A DNA stretch of 64,000 nucleotides from Paraburkholderia ginsengiterrae (lineage in GTDB: Bacteria > Pseudomonadota > Gammaproteobacteria > Burkholderiales > Burkholderiaceae). Below, piece by piece: positions 23,017 to 31,688 of this stretch (the stretch's first letter is position 1; each line of letters starts with the position of its first letter). The stretch spans positions 62,001 through 126,000 of the forward strand of contig NZ_LXKA01000360.1 of assembly GCF_001645125.1 (NCBI RefSeq), read 5' to 3'. The translations under genes and the position numbers were made by a program. The notes under the pieces are model-generated. The model made no database searches. It had not been told where the DNA came from and saw only the letters and a program-made list of their open reading frames with translations.

Positions 23017-23844
23017 TCACGCGGCACGCGCGACCGCCTCGCGCGCCGTACGTGCTTCAGCCCGCCTTTCATCCTGCTGGAGCGCCGCAGCATCGTCCCG
23101 TGCCCCGTCCACCGCCTCGGCAAACGCCACGCTTTCCCCAACCGCGCCACCTACCAGAATCACCGCTGGACTGCCAAACCCCGCGCGGCTCGCCGCAGCC
23201 GCAACCTGGTCCAGACGGCTTAGCAACCGCCGCTCGTTAGCGCCTCCGGCCCATTGCACGACAGCGGCCGGCGTATCACCCGGCAGACACGCAAGCAAAG
23301 CACCAGCAATGCTGTCGATGCGCCGCATCCCCATATAAATCGCCAGCGTGGTGCGGGTCGCCGCCAGCGCGGCCCAGTCCGGCTCGCCGTGATCCTCGGT
23401 GTGCGCGGTGACGAAGCTCACACCGTGGCAATGGCGTCGGTGCGTGAGCGACATACCGAGTCCGGCGGCGGCGGCGAAACCCGACGAGATGCCATTGACG
23501 ATCTCCACCGGAATGCCCGCGCCGCGCAAGACCGCGAGTTCTTCACCGGCGCGCCCGAACAGCAGCGCTTCGCCGCCTTTCACCCGCACCACGTGCAGGC
23601 CCTTGAGCGCATAGCGCCGCATCAGGCGCTCGATGAACGCCTGCGGCGTCGAGCGGCAGCCGCCGCGTTTGCCGACCCGGATAACACGCGCCTGTGGCGC
23701 CAGCGTCACGATCTCGGGATTCGCGAGGTCGTCGAGCAGCACGACGTCGGCGGCCGCGAGCGCGCGGGCGGCTTTGAGCGTGAGCAGGTCGAGCTCGCCT
23801 GGGCCTGCGCTCAATAGAGTGACCTTGCCGGTGTTCGTGTTCAT
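23017..23844 (-). CDS. cobA: Uroporphyrinogen-III C-methyltransferase (siroheme branch)
   Basis: A 275-residue SUMT that twice methylates uroporphyrinogen III to precorrin-2, the entry to siroheme, the cofactor of the NirB encoded divergently. Motifs: VTLLSAGPGELDLLTLKAA (SAM-binding loop, residues 6-24), VVRVKGGEALLFGRAGEE and the GISSGFAAAAGLG loop. The GGDP of most members reads GGEA here. ATG at 23844 with AAGGA 7 bases upstream. The CysG oxidase/ferrochelatase module is absent, so those steps must be encoded elsewhere. It is preceded by a sigma-54-like promoter and an attenuator-like terminator. Confidence 0.9.
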   Translation of the reverse strand: MNTNTGKVTLLSAGPGELDLLTLKAARALAAADVVLLDDLANPEIVTLAPQARVIRVGKRGGCRSTPQAFIERLMRRYALKGLHVVRVKGGEALLFGRAGEELAVLRGAGIPVEIVNGISSGFAAAAGLGMSLTHRRHCHGVSFVTAHTEDHGEPDWAALAATRTTLAIYMGMRRIDSIAGALLACLPGDTPAAVVQWAGGANERRLLSRLDQVAAAASRAGFGSPAVILVGGAVGESVAFAEAVDGARDDAAALQQDERRAEARTAREAVARAA

Positions 23845-23902: not shown

Positions 23903-23947
23903 AATAAAAAATGGCGTCCGCTCGTGAGAATCACGAGGGGACGCCGT
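23903..23947 (-). terminator. Leader terminator (putative attenuator) ahead of cobA
   Basis: On the minus strand, GGCGTCC (23945-23939) and CTCGTGA (23937-23931) pair with TCACGAG and GGACGCC across a single mismatch, giving about 14 bp, followed by ATTTTTTATT. It lies about 60 bases before the cobA start, so it would stop transcription before the gene unless bypassed. Its 5' side shares GGACAACGGCGTCCCC (23952-23937) with the nirB leader terminator. Confidence 0.75.
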
Positions 23948-23975
23948 TGTCCGCTTACTGCCTGATGAATGCCTG

Positions 23976-24013
23976 GCTTCGATGCCGTGCTTTTATGCCG
24001 TGCTTCATGCCGT
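23976..24013 (-). repeat. Three tandem 12-13-bp repeats in the cobA leader
   Basis: Plus-strand units GCTTCGATGCCGT, GCTTTTATGCCGT and GCTTCATGCCGT follow each other. In the cobA leader RNA they read ACGGCAU..AAGC three times, between the predicted start of transcription and the terminator hairpin. Confidence 0.75.
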
Positions 24014-24051
24014 TCCGGCTGCGTTGCCGCAACGGCCTAGCCGAGCTTTAT

Positions 24052-24066
24052 GCAAGTACCACGCCA
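24052..24066 (-). promoter_or_regulatory. Sigma-54-like promoter for cobA
   Basis: Minus strand reads TGGCGT-GGTAC-TTGC followed by A: the -24 GG and -12 GC are at the standard spacing. The -24 box differs from TGGCAC at two positions. Transcription would start near 24040. Confidence 0.55.
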
Positions 24067-24133
24067 CCCATCGGCTAGACACGCCCGATACCCCGCCGCG
24101 CCTCGCAAATAGCCCTGAAAACGCGTACCGGAC

Positions 24134-24193
24134 GCACCGCTCGCGTGCCCGCACTTCGCACGTGCACAGTGCTGCGTCGCACCATCCGTGTGC
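24134..24193. promoter_or_regulatory. Cluster of four NtrC-type enhancer cores
   Basis: Four exact GCAC-N7-GTGC dyads occur at 24134-24148, 24151-24165, 24158-24172 and 24179-24193. This is the core of the NtrC site (TGCACC-N5-GGTGCA). They lie between the two facing sigma-54-like promoters, about 70-140 bases from one and 100-160 from the other, a normal enhancer distance. Confidence 0.7.
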
Positions 24194-24294
24194 CTGGCTG
24201 CATCAAGACGAGCCTTGGGCAAACTTCATAACAGACTCGCCCGACTGGCCGCAAACCCTTATGCCACGGACGTTGCAAGGAAATAAAAAGCAAT

Positions 24295-24309
24295 TGGCAC
24301 AGCCTTTGC
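24295..24309 (+). promoter_or_regulatory. Sigma-54 promoter for nirB-nirD-nasA
   Basis: TGGCAC-AGCCT-TTGC matches the -24/-12 consensus at every core position with standard spacing. Transcription would start near 24321, leaving a leader of about 196 bases before nirB. Confidence 0.8.
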
Positions 24310-24344
24310 GTTACACCCAGCCATCGGATCAACGTGGATCCGGC

Positions 24345-24448
24345 GCGAGTGCAACACAAAGTGCTCGCCGCAATACAGGTCAGGACAACGGCGTCCCCCG
24401 AATTCAGTCATCGGCATCGACTGGGTTCGCGGGACGCCGTTTTTATTT
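24345..24448 (+). terminator. Leader hairpin and terminator (putative attenuator) ahead of nirB
   Basis: A first hairpin pairs GCGAGTGC (24345-24352) with GTGCTCGC (24361-24368) around the loop AACACAAA, with two G-U pairs. A second, long hairpin pairs AACGGCGTCCC (24387-24397) with GGGACGCCGTT (24431-24441), with inner helices CGAA/TTCG and CAGTC/GACTG, and runs into TTTTTATTT. It ends about 70 bases before the nirB start. This two-hairpin layout resembles nas leaders controlled by antitermination, but the loops do not match the ANTAR-type hexaloop consensus I know. Confidence 0.75.
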
Positions 24449-24516: not shown

Positions 24517-27057
24517 ATGAAAATCATCGTAATCGGTCACGGGATGGTCGGTCACAAACTGGTCGAGTGCCTCGCCCAGGACGCCGCGCATGGCCTCGAC
24601 ATCACGGTGCTGTGCGAAGAGTCGCGGCCGGCCTACGACCGCGTGCATCTGTCCGAGTTCTTCGCGGGCAAGACGGCGGACGACCTGTCGCTCGTCGAGC
24701 CGGGTTTCTTCGAGCGCCAGAACGTGCTGCTCAAGCTCAACGCGAAGGCCGTGTCGATCGATCGCGAAGCGCGCACCGTGACGGTGTCGACCGGCGAAAC
24801 GCTGCCGTACGACAAACTGGTGTTCGCCACCGGCTCCTATCCGTTCGTGCCGCCGGTGCCGGGCCGCGAGCGCGCCGATTGCTTCGTCTACCGAACCATC
24901 GACGACCTCGAGGCGATGCAGGAGTGCGGCGCGCGCTCGAAGACCGGCACAGTGGTCGGGGGCGGGCTGCTCGGTCTCGAATGCGCGAAGGCGCTGCGCG
25001 ATATGGGCCTGGAAACGCATGTGGTCGAATTCGCGCCGCGTCTGATGGCCGTGCAGGTGGACGAGGGCGGGGGCCGCGTCCTGCGCACCAGGATCGAAGA
25101 ACTCGGCGTGACGGTGCACACGCAGAAGAACACCAGCGCGATCGTCGACGGCGAAGAGGGCACGCACCGCATGCAATTCGCGGACGGCAGCCATCTCGAC
25201 ACCGACATGATCGTGTTTTCCGCGGGGATTCGTCCACGTGACGACCTTGCGCGAGCCTGCGGTCTGACGCTTGGCGCGCGCGGCGGCATTGTGATCGACA
25301 ACGCCTGCCGCACCAGCGACGAGCACATCTACGCGATCGGCGAGTGCGCGCTGTGGAACGGGCAGCTCTTCGGTCTCGTCGCACCCGGCTATGACATGGC
25401 CCGCGCGGTGGCGAAACAGCTGGTGGGCGAGGCCGTCGAGTTCGCCGGCGCCGACATGAGCACCAAGCTCAAGCTGATGGGCGTGGATGTGGCAAGCATC
25501 GGCGACGCGCACGGCAACACGCCGGGCAGCCGCGCGTATCAGTTCAGCGACGAACGCAAGCAGCTCTACAAGAAGCTGGTGGTCTCCGAGTGCGGCAAGT
25601 ATCTGCTGGGCGGCGTGATGGTCGGCGATGCCAGCGAATACGGCACGCTGCTGCAGATGATGCTGAACCGCATCGAGCTGCCGGCATCGCCTGAGTTCCT
25701 GATCCTGCCGCAAGCGGACGGCAGCGCGAAGCCCGCGCTCGGCGTGGAGGCTTTGCCCGCCGCCGCGCAGATCTGCTCGTGCAACAACGTCTCCAAGGGC
25801 GAGCTGTGCGCCGCGGTAGGCGCAGGCGCGACCGACATCGGCGCGCTCAAGTGCGCGACGAGCGCCGGCACCGCGTGCGGCGGCTGCGTGCCGCTCGTCA
25901 CGCAGGTGATGAAGGCCGAGATGAAGAAGCAGGGCCTCGCGGTCAACAACCACGTGTGCGAGCACTTCCCGTATTCGCGCCAGGAGCTGTATCACATCGT
26001 GCGCGTGGAAGGCGTGCGCAGCTTCGGTGAATTGCTTTCGAAGCACGGTCACGGGCTCGGCTGCGATATCTGCAAACCGGTGGTGGCGAGCATTCTCGCG
26101 TCGTGCTGGAACGAGTTCGTGCTGAAGAAAGAGCACGCCTCGCTGCAGGACACGAACGACTACTACCTCGCCAACATCCAGCGCGACGGCACCTATTCGG
26201 TGGTGCCGCGCATGGCGGGCGGCGAAGTGACGCCGGACGGGCTGATCGCGGTCGGCCAGATCGCGAAGAAATATGGCCTCTACACCAAGATCACCGGTGG
26301 TCAGCGCGTCGACCTGTTCGGCGCGCGCGTCGAACAATTGCCGCGCATCTGGGAAGAGCTGATCGCCGCCGGTTTCGAGTCGGGGCATGCATACGGCAAG
26401 TCGCTGCGCACCGTGAAGTCGTGTGTCGGTTCGACGTGGTGCCGCTATGGCGTGGGCGATTCGGTGGGTCTCGCGGTCGAGCTCGAGAACCGCTACAAGG
26501 GGCTGCGCACGCCGCACAAGATCAAGTTCGGCGTATCGGGCTGCACCCGCGAGTGCGCGGAAGCGCAGGGCAAGGACGTCGGCATCATCGCCACGGACAA
26601 AGGCTGGAACCTCTACGTGTGCGGCAACGGCGGCATGAAGCCGCGCCATGCGGAACTGCTCGCGTCGGACCTCGACAAGGACACGCTGGTGCGCTACATC
26701 GACCGCTTCCTGATGTTCTACGTGCGTACCGCCGACCGCCTGCAACGCACCAGCGTCTGGCGCGACAACCTCGAGGGCGGCCTTGACTATCTGATCGACG
26801 TGGTGGTCAACGATCACCTCGGCGTAGCCGATGAACTCGAAACGGAAATGCAACACGTGGTCGCCACCTACGAGTGCGAGTGGAAGAAGGCCGTCAACGA
26901 TCCCGAAACCCGCAAGCGTTTCCGTCACTTCGTGAACAGCGGCGAATCGGATGCCAACGTCACCTTCGTCGAAGAGCGCGGGCAGATCCGGCCGGCCACG
27001 GTGGCCGAGCGGCGCTCGAAGCTCGCCACGATTCCGGTCGTAGCCGAAACAGTCTGA
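24517..27057 (+). CDS. nirB: Assimilatory nitrite reductase large subunit
   Basis: An 846-residue NAD(P)H-dependent nitrite reductase, reducing nitrite to ammonium in the cytoplasm. Domain order: FAD/NAD(P) oxidoreductase (VIGHGMVGHKLVE at 4-16; GGGLLGLECAKAL near 148-160), two BFD-like [2Fe-2S] segments (ICSCNNVSKGELC near 420; LGCDICKPVVAS near 515), then the siroheme/[4Fe-4S] half. Cluster ligands are C636 and C642 (CVGSTWC) and C676 and C680 (CTREC). ATG at 24517 has GAGGA 10 bases upstream; the frame is open further up but that part is leader. nirD follows by 40 bases. Confidence 0.95.
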   Translation: MKIIVIGHGMVGHKLVECLAQDAAHGLDITVLCEESRPAYDRVHLSEFFAGKTADDLSLVEPGFFERQNVLLKLNAKAVSIDREARTVTVSTGETLPYDKLVFATGSYPFVPPVPGRERADCFVYRTIDDLEAMQECGARSKTGTVVGGGLLGLECAKALRDMGLETHVVEFAPRLMAVQVDEGGGRVLRTRIEELGVTVHTQKNTSAIVDGEEGTHRMQFADGSHLDTDMIVFSAGIRPRDDLARACGLTLGARGGIVIDNACRTSDEHIYAIGECALWNGQLFGLVAPGYDMARAVAKQLVGEAVEFAGADMSTKLKLMGVDVASIGDAHGNTPGSRAYQFSDERKQLYKKLVVSECGKYLLGGVMVGDASEYGTLLQMMLNRIELPASPEFLILPQADGSAKPALGVEALPAAAQICSCNNVSKGELCAAVGAGATDIGALKCATSAGTACGGCVPLVTQVMKAEMKKQGLAVNNHVCEHFPYSRQELYHIVRVEGVRSFGELLSKHGHGLGCDICKPVVASILASCWNEFVLKKEHASLQDTNDYYLANIQRDGTYSVVPRMAGGEVTPDGLIAVGQIAKKYGLYTKITGGQRVDLFGARVEQLPRIWEELIAAGFESGHAYGKSLRTVKSCVGSTWCRYGVGDSVGLAVELENRYKGLRTPHKIKFGVSGCTRECAEAQGKDVGIIATDKGWNLYVCGNGGMKPRHAELLASDLDKDTLVRYIDRFLMFYVRTADRLQRTSVWRDNLEGGLDYLIDVVVNDHLGVADELETEMQHVVATYECEWKKAVNDPETRKRFRHFVNSGESDANVTFVEERGQIRPATVAERRSKLATIPVVAETV

Positions 27058-27097: not shown

Positions 27098-27451
27098 ATG
27101 AACAACGATCGCCTGCCTCTGTCCTGGACCGCCATCTGCCCGCTCGACGACATCGTGCCCAACACGGGTGTCTGCGCGCTCGTCAAGGGCGAGCAGGTCG
27201 CGGTGTTCCATGTGGACAACGGCGAGCCTGAAGGCATCGTGTACGCGATCGAGAACTTCGATCCGGGCTCGCAGGCCGCGGTGCTTTCGCGCGGGCTGAT
27301 CGGCAATCTCGGTGAACGCGTCGTGGTCGCCTCGCCGATCTACAAGCATCACTTCGATCTGCGCACCGGCGAGTGCCTCGAAACACCGGGATATTCCGTC
27401 AGCGCGTTCGCCGCGCGAGTGGAAAACGGCCAGGTGTGGGTCGAAATCTGA
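27098..27451 (+). CDS. nirD: Nitrite reductase small subunit
   Basis: A 117-residue Rieske-fold subunit of assimilatory nitrite reductase. It lacks the Cys/His ligands of true Rieske proteins (the site reads SPIYKHHFDL), as is usual for NirD, so it is structural rather than redox-active. The start ATG has GAGGAG about 8 bases upstream. Lies 40 bases after nirB and 43 before nasA, forming one operon. Confidence 0.95.
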   Translation: MNNDRLPLSWTAICPLDDIVPNTGVCALVKGEQVAVFHVDNGEPEGIVYAIENFDPGSQAAVLSRGLIGNLGERVVVASPIYKHHFDLRTGECLETPGYSVSAFAARVENGQVWVEI

Positions 27452-27494
27452 CTGACCGCTTTTCCGCCAACCCTTTCCACAGACCTTGCCCGCC

Positions 27495-30400
27495 ATGTCC
27501 GCCACTACCGTAAAAACCGTGTGCCCCTACTGCGGCGTTGGCTGCGGAATGGTGCTGCACGTCGAGGACGGCCAGGTCGTGAAAATCGCCGGCGACAAGG
27601 AGCATCCGGCCAACTTCGGCCGGCTGTGCACGAAGGGCCAGTCGGCACACGTCGCCTTGCGCAAATCGGGGCGGCTCGAAGACGCGTTCGTGCGTCATGC
27701 GCGCGGCCAGGACCCGGCGCCGTTGCCGATGGCCGAGGCGCTCAGCACCACGGCGGCGCGGTTGCGCGGCTTGCTCGACGAACACGGACCGGATGCGTTG
27801 TCGTTCTACGTATCCGGACAGATGTCGATCGAGGCGCAGTATCTCGTCAACAAGCTGGCGAAAGGCTTTGTCGGCACCAACAACATCGAATCCAACTCGC
27901 GCCTGTGCATGGCGAGCGCGGGCAGCGGCTACAAGCTGTCGCTCGGCGCGGATGGCCCGCCGGGATCGTACGACGACATCGACCACGCCAATCTGTTCTT
28001 CGTGATCGGCGCGAATATGGCCGACTGTCACCCGATTCTGTTCCTGCGCATGATGGATCGCGTGAAAGCCGGCGCCAAACTGATCGTCGTCGATCCGCGC
28101 CGCAACACCACAGCGGAGAAGGCCGATCTGTTCATGCAGATCAAACCGGGCACCGATCTCGCGTTGCTCAACGGCCTGCTGCATCTGCTGCAAGAAAACG
28201 GCCATACGGACGCAGCATTTATCGCTGAAGCCACCGAAGGCTGGGAGGCGATGCCCGCGTTTCTCGCGGACTACACGCCGGACAACGTCGCACGAATCAC
28301 GGGCCTGTCAGTCGAGTCCATTCGCGATGCCGCGCGGATGATCGGCACCGCGAAGGAATGGATCAGCTGCTGGACCATGGGCCTGAATCAAAGCACGCAC
28401 GGCACGTGGCATACCAACGCGATCTGCAATCTGCATCTGGCGACGGGCAAGATCTGCCGCCGCGGCAGCGGCCCGTTCTCGCTGACGGGCCAGCCCAACG
28501 CGATGGGCGGCCGCGAAATGGGTTACATGGGGTCGGGCTTGCCGGGCCAGCGCTCGGTGCTGGTCGCGGAAGACCGCGCGTTTATCGAGGACCTGTGGGG
28601 CATTCCTGACGGCACGCTGACCACCCAGGTCGGCAACGGCACGATCGACATGTTCTCGCGGATGGCTGCGGGCGAGATCAAGGCGTGCTGGATCATCTGC
28701 ACGAATCCGGTGGCGAGTGTCGCCAATCGCCAGAATGTGATTGACGGTTTGCGCGCGGCGGAACTCGTGATCGCCCAGGACGCGTACCTCGACACCGAGA
28801 CCAATCGCTACGCCGACGTGCTGCTGCCCGGCGCGCTCTGGGCCGAAGCCGAAGGCGTGATGATCAACTCCGAGCGCAACCTCACGCTGATGCAAAAGGG
28901 CATCGAGCCGCCGGGTGCCGCGCTGCCGGACTGGCAGATCATCGCGCGGGTCGCCTGCGAAATGGGTTTCGCCGATGCCTTTACCTACGCGAGCGCCGAG
29001 GAGATCTTCGCCGAAATCACGCGTGCTTCGAATCCGAAAACCGGCTACGACCTGCGCGGCGCGAGCCATCGCCGGTTGAAAGAGACACCGCTGCAATGGC
29101 CGCTTGCCTCGGACGACTCGGCCGATCGCAATCCGGTTCGCTACCTCAACGACGGCGTGAGCCAGACGCTGAAGGAAGGTCCCGACGGCAGCCGTCCGCG
29201 CCTCGTGTTCCCGACCGCGAGCGGCAAGGCCATGTTCTTCGCCCGCGCTTATGTCGCCCCGGCGGAATTGCCCGACCGTGAATTTCCGATCGTGCTGAAC
29301 ACCGGCCGCTTGCAGCATCAATGGCACACCATGACCAAGACCGGCAAGGTCGCGATGCTCAATAAGCTGAACCCCGGCCCGTTCGTCGAGATTCATCCCG
29401 AAGACGCCGCCACGCTCGGCATCGAGGCGGCGGACTCTGTCGAGATTCGCTCGCGCCGCGGCCGCGCGGTGCTGCCGGCGGTAGTGACGGACCGCGTGAG
29501 CCCCGGCAACTGTTTTGCGCCGATGCACTGGAACGACGTCTTCGGCGACGACCTGTGCGTCAACGCGGTGACGAGCGACGCGATCGATCCGGTTTCGCAG
29601 CAGCCCGAACTTAAATTCTGCGCGGTTGCGCTGAGCCCGGTAGTGGTCGAACACATCGAGCCGGCTCCGCGTAGCACCGATGAGACGCTCATCGACGAGG
29701 CTGTTGCCGTTGCCGCGAGCGCGCTTCCGGCAAATACCGTATCGGCAAACGCCAAGGATCTGGATATGCCTCGTATCAATGCACTCACCAGTCTGTTGCA
29801 ATTGCCACCCACGCCCGCGCCGTCATTCACCGACACGGAGCGGGCCTATCTGGCCGGCTTCGTGAGCGGACTGCGTTCGGCAGAAGAGCAGATCATCGAC
29901 AGCGTGCCGGTTCTGCCGGGCAATGCACCGCTCGAGTCGGCCAGCCGTCTCTATGTGGACGGTCTGCTCGCCGGTCTCTATAGCCGCAGCACGAGCGCCG
30001 CGCGCCCCGCATCGGCCGCTACGCTGCCGGCCGCTTCGGAGCATGGTGTGCGCATCGTGCGCGCACGCCCCAAGGTCACGCTGCTGTGGGCCTCGCAAAC
30101 CGGCAACACCGAATCGCTCACCGACCGCTATGCCACGCGTTTGATGGAATCCGGTTTTGAGATCCGTACGTCGTGCATGGCGGATTACCAGATCTCGACG
30201 CTCGTCAAAGCCCAATACGTGCTGATGATGACGAGCACGTTCGGCGACGGCGATCCGCCCGACAATGCACAAAGCCTGTGGACGCAACTGGGCGGCGGCA
30301 GCGCGCCGCGTCTGGACGGCGTGCGCTTCGCAGTGCTCGCACTCGGCGACCGCAACTACGACGACTTCTGCGGCCACGGCCGTCGGCTCGACGAGCGGCT

Positions 30401-31688
30401 CGCCGCACAAGGCGCGTTGCGTCTGATGGACCGCGTCGATTGCGACAGCGAGTATCAGGAGAGCGCGGACGGGTGGCTCGAACGCATCATCGTGCGCATC
30501 AAGGAAGAAGATGCGGCGCTGCATGCGGTGCCACCGGACGGCATGATCAACGCGGTCGTGCCGGGCGCGGTGCCGAGCAAGACGCGTCCGGCCGCGTCGC
30601 GGCTCGTGAGCAATCTGCGCCTGAACCGGCAGGGTGCGGCCAAGGACACGCGCTATTTTTCGCTGAACACCGGCGACTCGGGCCTTGAATACGAAGCGGG
30701 TGATGCGCTCGGCGTGTGGCCGAGCAACTGTCCCGAACTGGTGGACGAGCTGATCGGCTTGAGCGGCTTGAGTGCGAACGCCACGGTGAACGTGGCGGGC
30801 GCGGGCGAAATGCGCCTCGCCGACGCACTCGGCAAGCACTACGAAATCGCGCGCCCGAACCCGGACCTGCTGGCGTTCGTCGCCGCCCGCAGCAACAACG
30901 CTGCGCTGCGCGATCTGCTTACGCCGGAACGCAAGGTCGACCTCAAGCAGTGGCTGTGGGGCCAGCAGATCGCCGACGTTCTCCACGAATTTCCGGCGAG
31001 CCTCACGGCCACGGAATTGACCGGCATGCTCAAGCGTCTGCAACCGCGTTTGTACTCGATCGCCTCGAGTCCGAAAGCGCATCCGGGCGAGGTTCATCTG
31101 ACGGTTGCCGCCGTGCGCTACAGCAATGGCCGCCGGCATCGCAAAGGCGTGTCGTCGACGTTTCTCGCCGACCGCGCCGGCGACGTCAATGTGCCGGTGT
31201 TCGTGCAGAAGTCCGCACACTTTCGTCCTCCTCACAGTTCCGACACGCCGATGATCATGGTCGGTCCCGGCACCGGCGTTGCACCGTTTCGCAGCTTCCT
31301 GCACGAACGCCGTGCACGCGGCGACAAGGGGCGCAACTGGCTGTTCTTCGGCGAGCAGCATGCTGCTACCGATTTCTACTACCGCGATGAACTCGAAGCG
31401 ATGCGCGACAGCGGGGTGCTCTCGCGTCTCGACGTGGCGTTCTCACGCGATCAGACCGAGAAGATCTACGTGCAGGACCGCATGCGCGAGCAGGGCGCTC
31501 AAATGTGGTCGTGGCTCGAGCAGGGCGCGCACTTCTACGTGTGCGGCGACGCCAACCGGATGGCGAAGGACGTCGACGCGGCGCTCAAGGAAGTGGTCTC
31601 GCTGCACGGCGGCATGAGCGAAGAGAAGGCGAACGAATACGTGAGCCGTCTCGCGCAGGAAAAGCGCTACGCACGCGACGTTTATTGA
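27495..31688 (+). CDS. nasA: Assimilatory nitrate reductase fused to CysJ-type flavoprotein reductase
   Basis: A 1397-residue fusion. The N-terminal 740 residues are a molybdopterin-guanine-dinucleotide nitrate reductase: [4Fe-4S] ligands C10, C13, C17 and C45, and the likely Mo ligand C138 (SNSRLCMASAG), then the dinucleotide-binding domain (about 600-720). A linker (about 770-850) resembling the start of CysJ leads to a flavodoxin-like FMN domain (LLWASQTGNTE near 862), an FAD domain and an NAD(P) domain (MVGPGTGVAPFRSFL near 1254). Electrons can therefore pass from NAD(P)H to nitrate within one chain, without a separate NasB or ferredoxin. The ATG at 27495 is preferred to TTG at 27486. Third gene of the nir-nas operon. 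Confidence 0.95.
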   Translation: MSATTVKTVCPYCGVGCGMVLHVEDGQVVKIAGDKEHPANFGRLCTKGQSAHVALRKSGRLEDAFVRHARGQDPAPLPMAEALSTTAARLRGLLDEHGPDALSFYVSGQMSIEAQYLVNKLAKGFVGTNNIESNSRLCMASAGSGYKLSLGADGPPGSYDDIDHANLFFVIGANMADCHPILFLRMMDRVKAGAKLIVVDPRRNTTAEKADLFMQIKPGTDLALLNGLLHLLQENGHTDAAFIAEATEGWEAMPAFLADYTPDNVARITGLSVESIRDAARMIGTAKEWISCWTMGLNQSTHGTWHTNAICNLHLATGKICRRGSGPFSLTGQPNAMGGREMGYMGSGLPGQRSVLVAEDRAFIEDLWGIPDGTLTTQVGNGTIDMFSRMAAGEIKACWIICTNPVASVANRQNVIDGLRAAELVIAQDAYLDTETNRYADVLLPGALWAEAEGVMINSERNLTLMQKGIEPPGAALPDWQIIARVACEMGFADAFTYASAEEIFAEITRASNPKTGYDLRGASHRRLKETPLQWPLASDDSADRNPVRYLNDGVSQTLKEGPDGSRPRLVFPTASGKAMFFARAYVAPAELPDREFPIVLNTGRLQHQWHTMTKTGKVAMLNKLNPGPFVEIHPEDAATLGIEAADSVEIRSRRGRAVLPAVVTDRVSPGNCFAPMHWNDVFGDDLCVNAVTSDAIDPVSQQPELKFCAVALSPVVVEHIEPAPRSTDETLIDEAVAVAASALPANTVSANAKDLDMPRINALTSLLQLPPTPAPSFTDTERAYLAGFVSGLRSAEEQIIDSVPVLPGNAPLESASRLYVDGLLAGLYSRSTSAARPASAATLPAASEHGVRIVRARPKVTLLWASQTGNTESLTDRYATRLMESGFEIRTSCMADYQISTLVKAQYVLMMTSTFGDGDPPDNAQSLWTQLGGGSAPRLDGVRFAVLALGDRNYDDFCGHGRRLDERLAAQGALRLMDRVDCDSEYQESADGWLERIIVRIKEEDAALHAVPPDGMINAVVPGAVPSKTRPAASRLVSNLRLNRQGAAKDTRYFSLNTGDSGLEYEAGDALGVWPSNCPELVDELIGLSGLSANATVNVAGAGEMRLADALGKHYEIARPNPDLLAFVAARSNNAALRDLLTPERKVDLKQWLWGQQIADVLHEFPASLTATELTGMLKRLQPRLYSIASSPKAHPGEVHLTVAAVRYSNGRRHRKGVSSTFLADRAGDVNVPVFVQKSAHFRPPHSSDTPMIMVGPGTGVAPFRSFLHERRARGDKGRNWLFFGEQHAATDFYYRDELEAMRDSGVLSRLDVAFSRDQTEKIYVQDRMREQGAQMWSWLEQGAHFYVCGDANRMAKDVDAALKEVVSLHGGMSEEKANEYVSRLAQEKRYARDVY

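Follow-up and report, generated by a model that had tools for sequence, protein, structure and literature searches.

According to its published plan, an ANTAR-responsive leader RNA carries two hairpins with hexaloops having A at position 1 and G at position 4 (A1/G4), and the second of these hairpins is mutually exclusive with a terminator (PMC3369931, PMC3369936). In Pseudomonas, as described in PMC12830290, NasT reads the nalA leader of nirBD, which is made from a sigma-54 promoter under NtrC. For the ntrC mutant of B. cenocepacia H111 the fold changes given in PMC5491218 include −11.4 for uroporphyrinogen-III methyltransferase, −8.1 for nasT, −6.5 for nirB and −6.6 for a nitrate/nitrite transporter, and by analogy these values support an NtrC step and have no bearing on antitermination. 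Expression of narK in B. diazoefficiens, for which NasT hairpins have been predicted, is reported to have risen, not fallen, without nasT (PMC6759348).

The window analysed here, a stretch of 64,000 nucleotides from Paraburkholderia ginsengiterrae, has nirB and cobA in divergent orientation, each behind a leader of its own. We consider it highly likely that NasT reads both leaders and that they work as ANTAR-responsive attenuators.

Layout of the two leaders

The genes and leader features are collected in Table 1. The frame downstream of nirD, in which a nitrate reductase and a CysJ-like flavoprotein share a single 1400 residues, is matched by the NCBIfam NasC and CysJ models, both under their cut-offs. 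Among the matches listed, the best named relatives of CobA are from Paraburkholderia, with 90% identity in the first row.

Table 1. Genes and predicted leader features at the nirB-cobA locus, in positions of the window
Feature	Positions	Strand	Basis
nirB, nitrite reductase large subunit	24517..27057	+	TIGR02374, 1137.7 bits; start assigned in this analysis
nirD, nitrite reductase small subunit	27098..27451	+	TIGR02378 above cut-off
assimilatory nitrate reductase fused to CysJ-like flavoprotein	27486..31688	+	Pfam domains
sigma-54-type −24/−12 promoter of nirB, TGGCACAGCCTTTGC	24295..24309	+	exact TGGCRYN5TTGC match
P1 hairpin, nirB leader	24324..24343	+	CGGATC[AACGTG]GATCCG at 24325-24342; loop 24331-24336, A1/G4
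hairpin inside nirB P1-P2 linker	24343..24371	+	predicted folds; linker 24344-24382, 39 nt
P2 antiterminator hairpin, nirB (putative)	24383..24396	+	GGAC[AACGGC]GTCC, loop 24387-24392, A1/G4; overlaps terminator 5' arm
intrinsic terminator, nirB leader	24387..24444	+	fold; stems kept in relatives
NtrC-like site cluster between both sigma-54-type promoters	24134..24193		four overlapping one-mismatch matches
sigma-54-type promoter of cobA, TGGCGTGGTACTTGC	24052..24066	−	TGGCRYN5TTGC match
P1 hairpin, cobA leader	24009..24036	−	core 24029-24016 CGGC[AACGCA]GCCG, A1/G4, within longer interrupted stem
P2 antiterminator hairpin, cobA (putative)	23939..23952	−	GGAC[AACGGC]GTCC, loop 23948-23943
intrinsic terminator, cobA leader	23906..23945	−	fold; stems kept in relatives
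cobA, uroporphyrinogen-III C-methyltransferase (siroheme synthesis)	23017..23844	−	NF004790, TIGR01469 above cut-offs; start assigned here

The two leaders share the 16-mer GGACAACGGCGTCCCC, found exactly where a preliminary description had placed it (24383-24398 on the plus strand and 23952-23937 on the minus strand), and even with two mismatches allowed no third match turns up in the window (0.10 expected per shuffle, two matches in none of 100 shuffles). In predicted folds of RNA ending before the 3' arm of the terminator, the 16-mer itself makes the hairpin GGAC[AACGGC]GTCC, with A1 and G4 in its hexaloop and a 3' arm that doubles as the 5' arm of the terminator, GGCGTCC being common to both. 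The 16-mer hairpin is, by these features, an ANTAR P2 antiterminator. Predicted folds of the growing transcript have P2 standing in both leaders until the 3' arm of the terminator is made, when P2 is replaced. The same description had also claimed an intrinsic terminator begun by the 16-mer in each leader, a different remainder of the two terminator hairpins and a short hairpin upstream of each, and all of this is borne out, the terminators folding at −38.4 kcal/mol (z −6.8) before nirB and −25.7 kcal/mol (z −5.4) before cobA.

Each leader thus has a pair of A1/G4 hexaloop hairpins with stems of at least 3 bp, and in each the 3' arm of P2 overlaps the 5' arm of the terminator, the two having exclusive predicted folds. 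Since two A1/G4 hexaloops, the second exclusive with the terminator, are the published plan, the earlier claim of loops at odds with the ANTAR rule is wrong: the P1/P2 loops, AACGTG/AACGGC before nirB and AACGCA/AACGGC before cobA, obey it. It seems that the terminator loops, which in the predicted folds are of 9 and 3 nt and not hexaloops, had been judged in place of those of P1 and P2.

The sigma-54 consensus is TGGCRYN5TTGC, and in this form it has 4 exact matches in the window against 1.3 expected, a number that 5 of 100 shuffles reach. One such site ends 15 nt before the nirB P1 stem and another 15 nt before the longer cobA P1 stem, so that with starts presumed from these sites either RNA should carry P1 close to its 5' end. 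Of the 17 one-mismatch matches to an NtrC-like consensus in the window, 4 fall in the cluster between the promoters, a weak signal given a chance expectation of 13 for the whole window. For cobA, a first P1 candidate, GGC[ATCGAA]GCC at 23987-23976 on the minus strand, was dropped, relatives putting P1 upstream, beside the promoter.

Conservation of the leaders and their likely reader

The family was surveyed by searching 150 genomes with the N-terminal 300 residues of NirB, which gave a match in 146, many of them just distant flavoproteins, and loci were taken from 70 of the searched genomes (30 + 40). Divergent cobA and nirB occur in 11 of these 70 loci, all 11 with P2 on both strands, and under a first rule of P2 with an overlapping terminator all 11 nirB leaders and 8 of the 11 cobA leaders (not those of L045, L049 and L050) are recognised. 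The other 59 loci are mostly without such a leader directly before nirB, and in many a leader precedes an upstream narK-like gene. With further loci added, 121 P2 sites were listed at 119 distinct places (two entered twice), 19 of the 119 having no reference gene downstream; most of the 19 are probably chance matches. Two sites without a downstream reference gene, L107 and L109, combine P2 with a promoter-like site, an A1/G4 P1 and a T-run, and these may serve genes outside the reference set.

P1, P2 and terminator are kept in many relatives, conservation of the hairpins having been named beforehand as a point on which the reading could fail. When hexaloop hairpins of at least 5 bp were counted up to 170 nt before P2, with the loop unchosen, A1/G4 was found at 74 of 121 sites and the next class at 6 (72 and 6 of 115 once like contexts were merged). 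Among 30 cobA leaders the strongest hexaloop hairpin is A1/G4 in 26, and L078 has a strong A1/G4 hairpin besides; a clear A1/G4 P1 was not found in three of the 30 (L049, L050, L096), and no run of four T was found at the place searched in 13, whose terminators are therefore doubtful.

Of the 53 nirB/narK leaders with enough flank, forty were aligned, a set that leans to clear cases as the 13 left out include leaders of odd layout or less clear P1. In this alignment 98.8% of P1 and P2 cells pair, as against at most 51.3% with the partners slid by 1-3 columns; for P1 the figure is 97.9%, with both-side changes in five of its six pairs. P2 pairs in all 40 and hardly varies, so covariation does not probe it. 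None of 500 shuffles, which ignore kinship, reaches any of five pairing measures. Pairing of P1 and terminator cells together stands at 98.9% in nirB/narK leaders and 92.5% in all 30 cobA leaders, for which two of the measures are attained in 12 and 11 of 500 shuffles.

Eighty named loci around cobA (79 with usable sequence, 1.5 kb each) formed a second set, which has P2 before cobA in 61 of 79 and on the divergent strand in 67, with 50 and 57 of these absent from the earlier set. The 61 on the cobA side have a terminator in 56 cases, a sigma-54-like site in 54 and an A1/G4 hairpin of at least 4 bp in 46, with A1/G4 as the top class in 41; the corresponding numbers for the 67 on the divergent strand are 67, 67, 65 and 57, the sigma-54 pattern applied being a loose one. 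P2 before cobA was not found in 18 of the 79, including all 8 from Pandoraea, within 1.5 kb that need not include nirB; in the first set, L057 and L069 have the nirB leader. Loci with a P2-less cobA, the rise of narK in B. diazoefficiens and the long linkers discussed below are among the points that speak against the NasT-attenuator reading.

The genome has one ANTAR protein (68.4 bits, cut-off 27.3), of 191 aa, with a receiver domain (PF00072, 37.0 bits) and an ANTAR domain (PF03861, 66.4 bits). The adjoining gene encodes an NMT1-type protein (PF13379, 298.2 bits), as would be expected for NasS, and the two are here called NasT-like and NasS-like. The best solved relatives of the NasT-like protein are 1s8n ('putative antiterminator') and, over most of its length, 6wsh/6ww6, while its ANTAR part matches 4akk (nitrate regulatory protein) and 1qo0 (AmiR); 6WW6 is described in PMC8934654 as EutV with RNA. 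Of the 150 genomes, 93 have both the P2 pattern and an ANTAR protein, 1 has the pattern alone, 10 have ANTAR alone and 46 have neither, an association inflated by small genomes without both and by relatedness. The exact P2 pattern is thus missing from 10 of 103 ANTAR-bearing genomes, and a reversed control pattern is now and then present by chance.

The preliminary description had suggested that the antitermination factor could be of a new kind, in which case a non-ANTAR protein would recognise either the shared 16-mer or the loops of the terminators. The 16-mer is indeed real and the terminator loops are not hexaloops in the predicted folds, but the P1 and P2 loops obey the ANTAR rule, are conserved and co-occur with ANTAR proteins, P2 overlaps the terminator, and the sole ANTAR protein of the genome is NasT-like, so that a new factor is extremely unlikely.

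The RNA is further tied to NasT as its likely reader by 15 of the 30 cobA leaders, behind which cobA and then nasT follow within the 1.5 kb examined. In these 15 loci (within L076-L095, genera g10 and g12) nasT stands after cobA behind the same cobA leader, and NasT may there be under its own antitermination. Some 9-10 of the 15 (L076, L078-L081, L084, L085, L088, L093, L094) are without the run of four T, and such leaders may leak, leaving a basal expression of NasT. Two other loci, L114 and L115 (genera g24 and g3), encode ANTAR domains in open frames roughly as long as NasR (506 and 528 aa), and a same-strand P2 site follows the end of each frame after about 360-375 nt.

Within the genome the P2 pattern occurs four times, before nirB, before cobA and at two contig ends before narK-like genes, where both leaders (L102:1-370 on contig C343 and L103:1-370 on contig C368) have a sigma-54-like site, a P1 (loops AAAGTC and AAAGGC) and a T-run. 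Both contigs end inside the gene, and the first 38 residues of the two narK-like genes are identical; a relative that is complete and likewise follows a leader of this build (L104) reaches 294.8 bits against the NarK family, a little short of the cut-off of 311.7. A looser P2 pattern has 15 matches in the genome, four of them the known leaders, and the remaining 11 have no P1 and no leader build, one having sigma-54-like matches. A covariance model of the nirB/narK leaders (R1) returns eight rows from the genome, namely the four leaders, two rows opposite known leaders on the other strand and two with E of 0.43 and 0.80. The nirB leader and both narK leaders are in the R1 alignment and match by construction; that of cobA, which is outside it, is matched weakly (27.4 bits, E 1.7e-4), which makes a common origin likely.

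This weak match, together with the strength of both terminators, would also suit unregulated terminators that just insulate or damp both operons, the 16-mer being left from a duplicated terminator. The terminators sit between a promoter-like site and the gene, however, and the P1 loop and pairing are kept, which makes this explanation very unlikely. With the leaders read as NasT-responsive, what was an 'unknown factor' becomes a testable NasT regulon of four leaders, those of nirB, cobA and the two narK-like genes.

The best Rfam match of both window leaders is P11 (RF00625), which we take to be the same RNA as nalA, at 29.8 and 25.6 bits, below the gathering cut-off of 70. Rfam lists P11 as a small RNA of Pseudomonas, and the leaders might accordingly be mainly trans-acting small RNAs produced by termination; the exclusion of P2 and terminator points instead to action in cis, as does the nalA work as summarised in PMC12830290, and we give a mainly trans-acting role hardly any credence.

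The P1-P2 linker

P1 and P2 are separated by 39 nt in the nirB leader and, in the cobA leader, by 63 nt counted from the P1 core or 56 nt from the longer stem. In eut leaders this linker is put at 5-12 nt, and with EutV a 14-nt linker drastically reduced induction while 20 extra nt abolished antitermination (PMC3369931, PMC8934654). Neither window leader has this eut-like spacing, spacing being no defining feature of ANTAR leaders; the Ramesh search model, as given in PMC3369931, allows a variable linker.

Among the sites sampled, the long linker is common to most of the family. At 66 family sites with a terminator P1 was recognised in 53, with a median linker of 43 nt and at least 27 nt in 52 of the 53, whereas among 60 P2 sites outside the family (30 with a terminator; the best 30 of each search plus P11 matches, downstream genes unchecked) P1 was recognised in 25, with a median of 12 nt, at most 16 nt in 17 and at least 36 nt in 8, all these sites coming from related genomes and so not being independent. 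The named set gives 38-84 nt on the divergent strand (38-43 nt in 52 of 65) and 25-94 nt before cobA, and two cobA leaders without a recognised terminator have linkers of 20 nt (L085) and 22 nt (L084). A P1 hidden near P2 was looked for in the family and rejected: at sites with a recognised terminator, to which this comparison was confined, A1/G4 hairpins of at least 4 bp lie 2-20 nt before P2 in 1 of 66 and 25-90 nt before it in 37 of 66, as against 14 of 30 and 9 of 30 outside the family. The locus L137, which is matched by P11 above the cut-off (126 bits) and has GGAC[AAAGGC]GTCC and a terminator, differs from the window leaders in having an A1/G4 hairpin 3 nt from P2, where they have 39 and 63 nt; a weaker candidate there, CTC[AACGTG]GAG, lies by eye about 29 nt before P2, and so the P1 of L137 is uncertain.

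Compared with shuffles, the folding of the linker has a mean z of −1.45 in 16 nirB, −1.38 in 29 narK and −0.89 in 23 cobA leaders, and the unpaired part of the linker is not clearly shorter than in shuffles in these nirB, narK and cobA leaders (medians 12, 14 and 11; shuffle means 9.7, 11.7 and 11.5). These modelled folds hint weakly that collapse of the linker into a hairpin may explain the joint working of P1 and P2. A wider proposal, which we put forward tentatively and as something short of the expected outcome, is that in this family NasT contacts its two hexaloops over a long, near-fixed linker outside the limits seen with EutV, that the linker, which in many cases folds, is a working part (a spacer, a pause or a second contact) and not filler, and that the ANTAR spacing rule is protein-specific. 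The long linker also offers a natural test of the way in which an ANTAR dimer engages two hexaloops, which the paper on the structure of EutV with RNA discusses as unresolved. Among the matches listed in the open-access literature there was no long-linker ANTAR leader and no leader for a separate cobA transcript; the supplementary hit tables of PMC3369931 do name Burkholderia.

Proposed mechanism and comparison with described systems

From P1, P2, the terminators, their mutual exclusion in predicted folds, conservation and the NasT-like and NasS-like genes, all of which can be read from the DNA, we infer a mechanism that extends to NtrC and NasT binding, the ligand, the transcription starts, the extent of the operons and the switch itself. 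Under nitrogen limitation sigma-54 RNA polymerase with NtrC would start both divergent transcripts, P1 being made first and P2 next, and the terminator would replace P2 once its own 3' arm is made. Without nitrate or nitrite NasS would hold NasT, the terminator would form and short leaders only would result. With nitrate or nitrite, freed NasT would bind the A1/G4 hexaloops and stabilise P2, and the polymerase would read through into nirBD-nasA in one direction and cobA in the opposite one, so that production of nitrite reductase would coincide with that of the enzyme supplying its siroheme cofactor. One nitrate/nitrite signal acting through NasT would thus probably open both operons, and the earlier suggestion of matching attenuators on divergent operons of one pathway under one antitermination signal gains support at the level of sequence. 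The arrangement points to a coupling of siroheme supply to nitrite reductase through an RNA switch present in two copies.

The mechanism and the pathway are already known. Pseudomonas nalA (nirBD-PA1779-cobA) resembles the present locus in its sigma-54 promoter, NtrC, leader terminator and nirBD and cobA targets, as described in PMC12830290 and, by its title, in Romeo 2012; there cobA belongs to the nirBD operon, whereas here nirB and cobA are divergent with one leader each. The nasF leader read by NasR in Klebsiella oxytoca, as presented in PMC3369936, is alike in the A1/G4 loops of P1 and P2, in the overlap of P2 with the terminator and in the nitrate signal, but its reader is one NIT-ANTAR protein in place of the NasT-like and NasS-like proteins found here. 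EutV and the eut leaders of Enterococcus faecalis share the dual hexaloop exclusive with a terminator, and the NasT-like protein matches 6wsh/6ww6; the signal there is another one, and the eut linker is reported as 5-12 nt. In Paracoccus denitrificans, according to PMC3795266, nitrate or nitrite frees NasT from NasS and NasT binds the nasA leader RNA, a likeness drawn by description with the leader sequence uncompared, and the operon layout is different. What appears to be new is a matter of detail, that is, separate attenuators on divergent cobA and nirB and, for the sites sampled, a family linker with a median of 43 nt as against 12 nt outside. Set against these systems, the locus carries, from its predicted RNA features, two attenuators of the ANTAR/NasT type whose P1-P2 linker is expanded.
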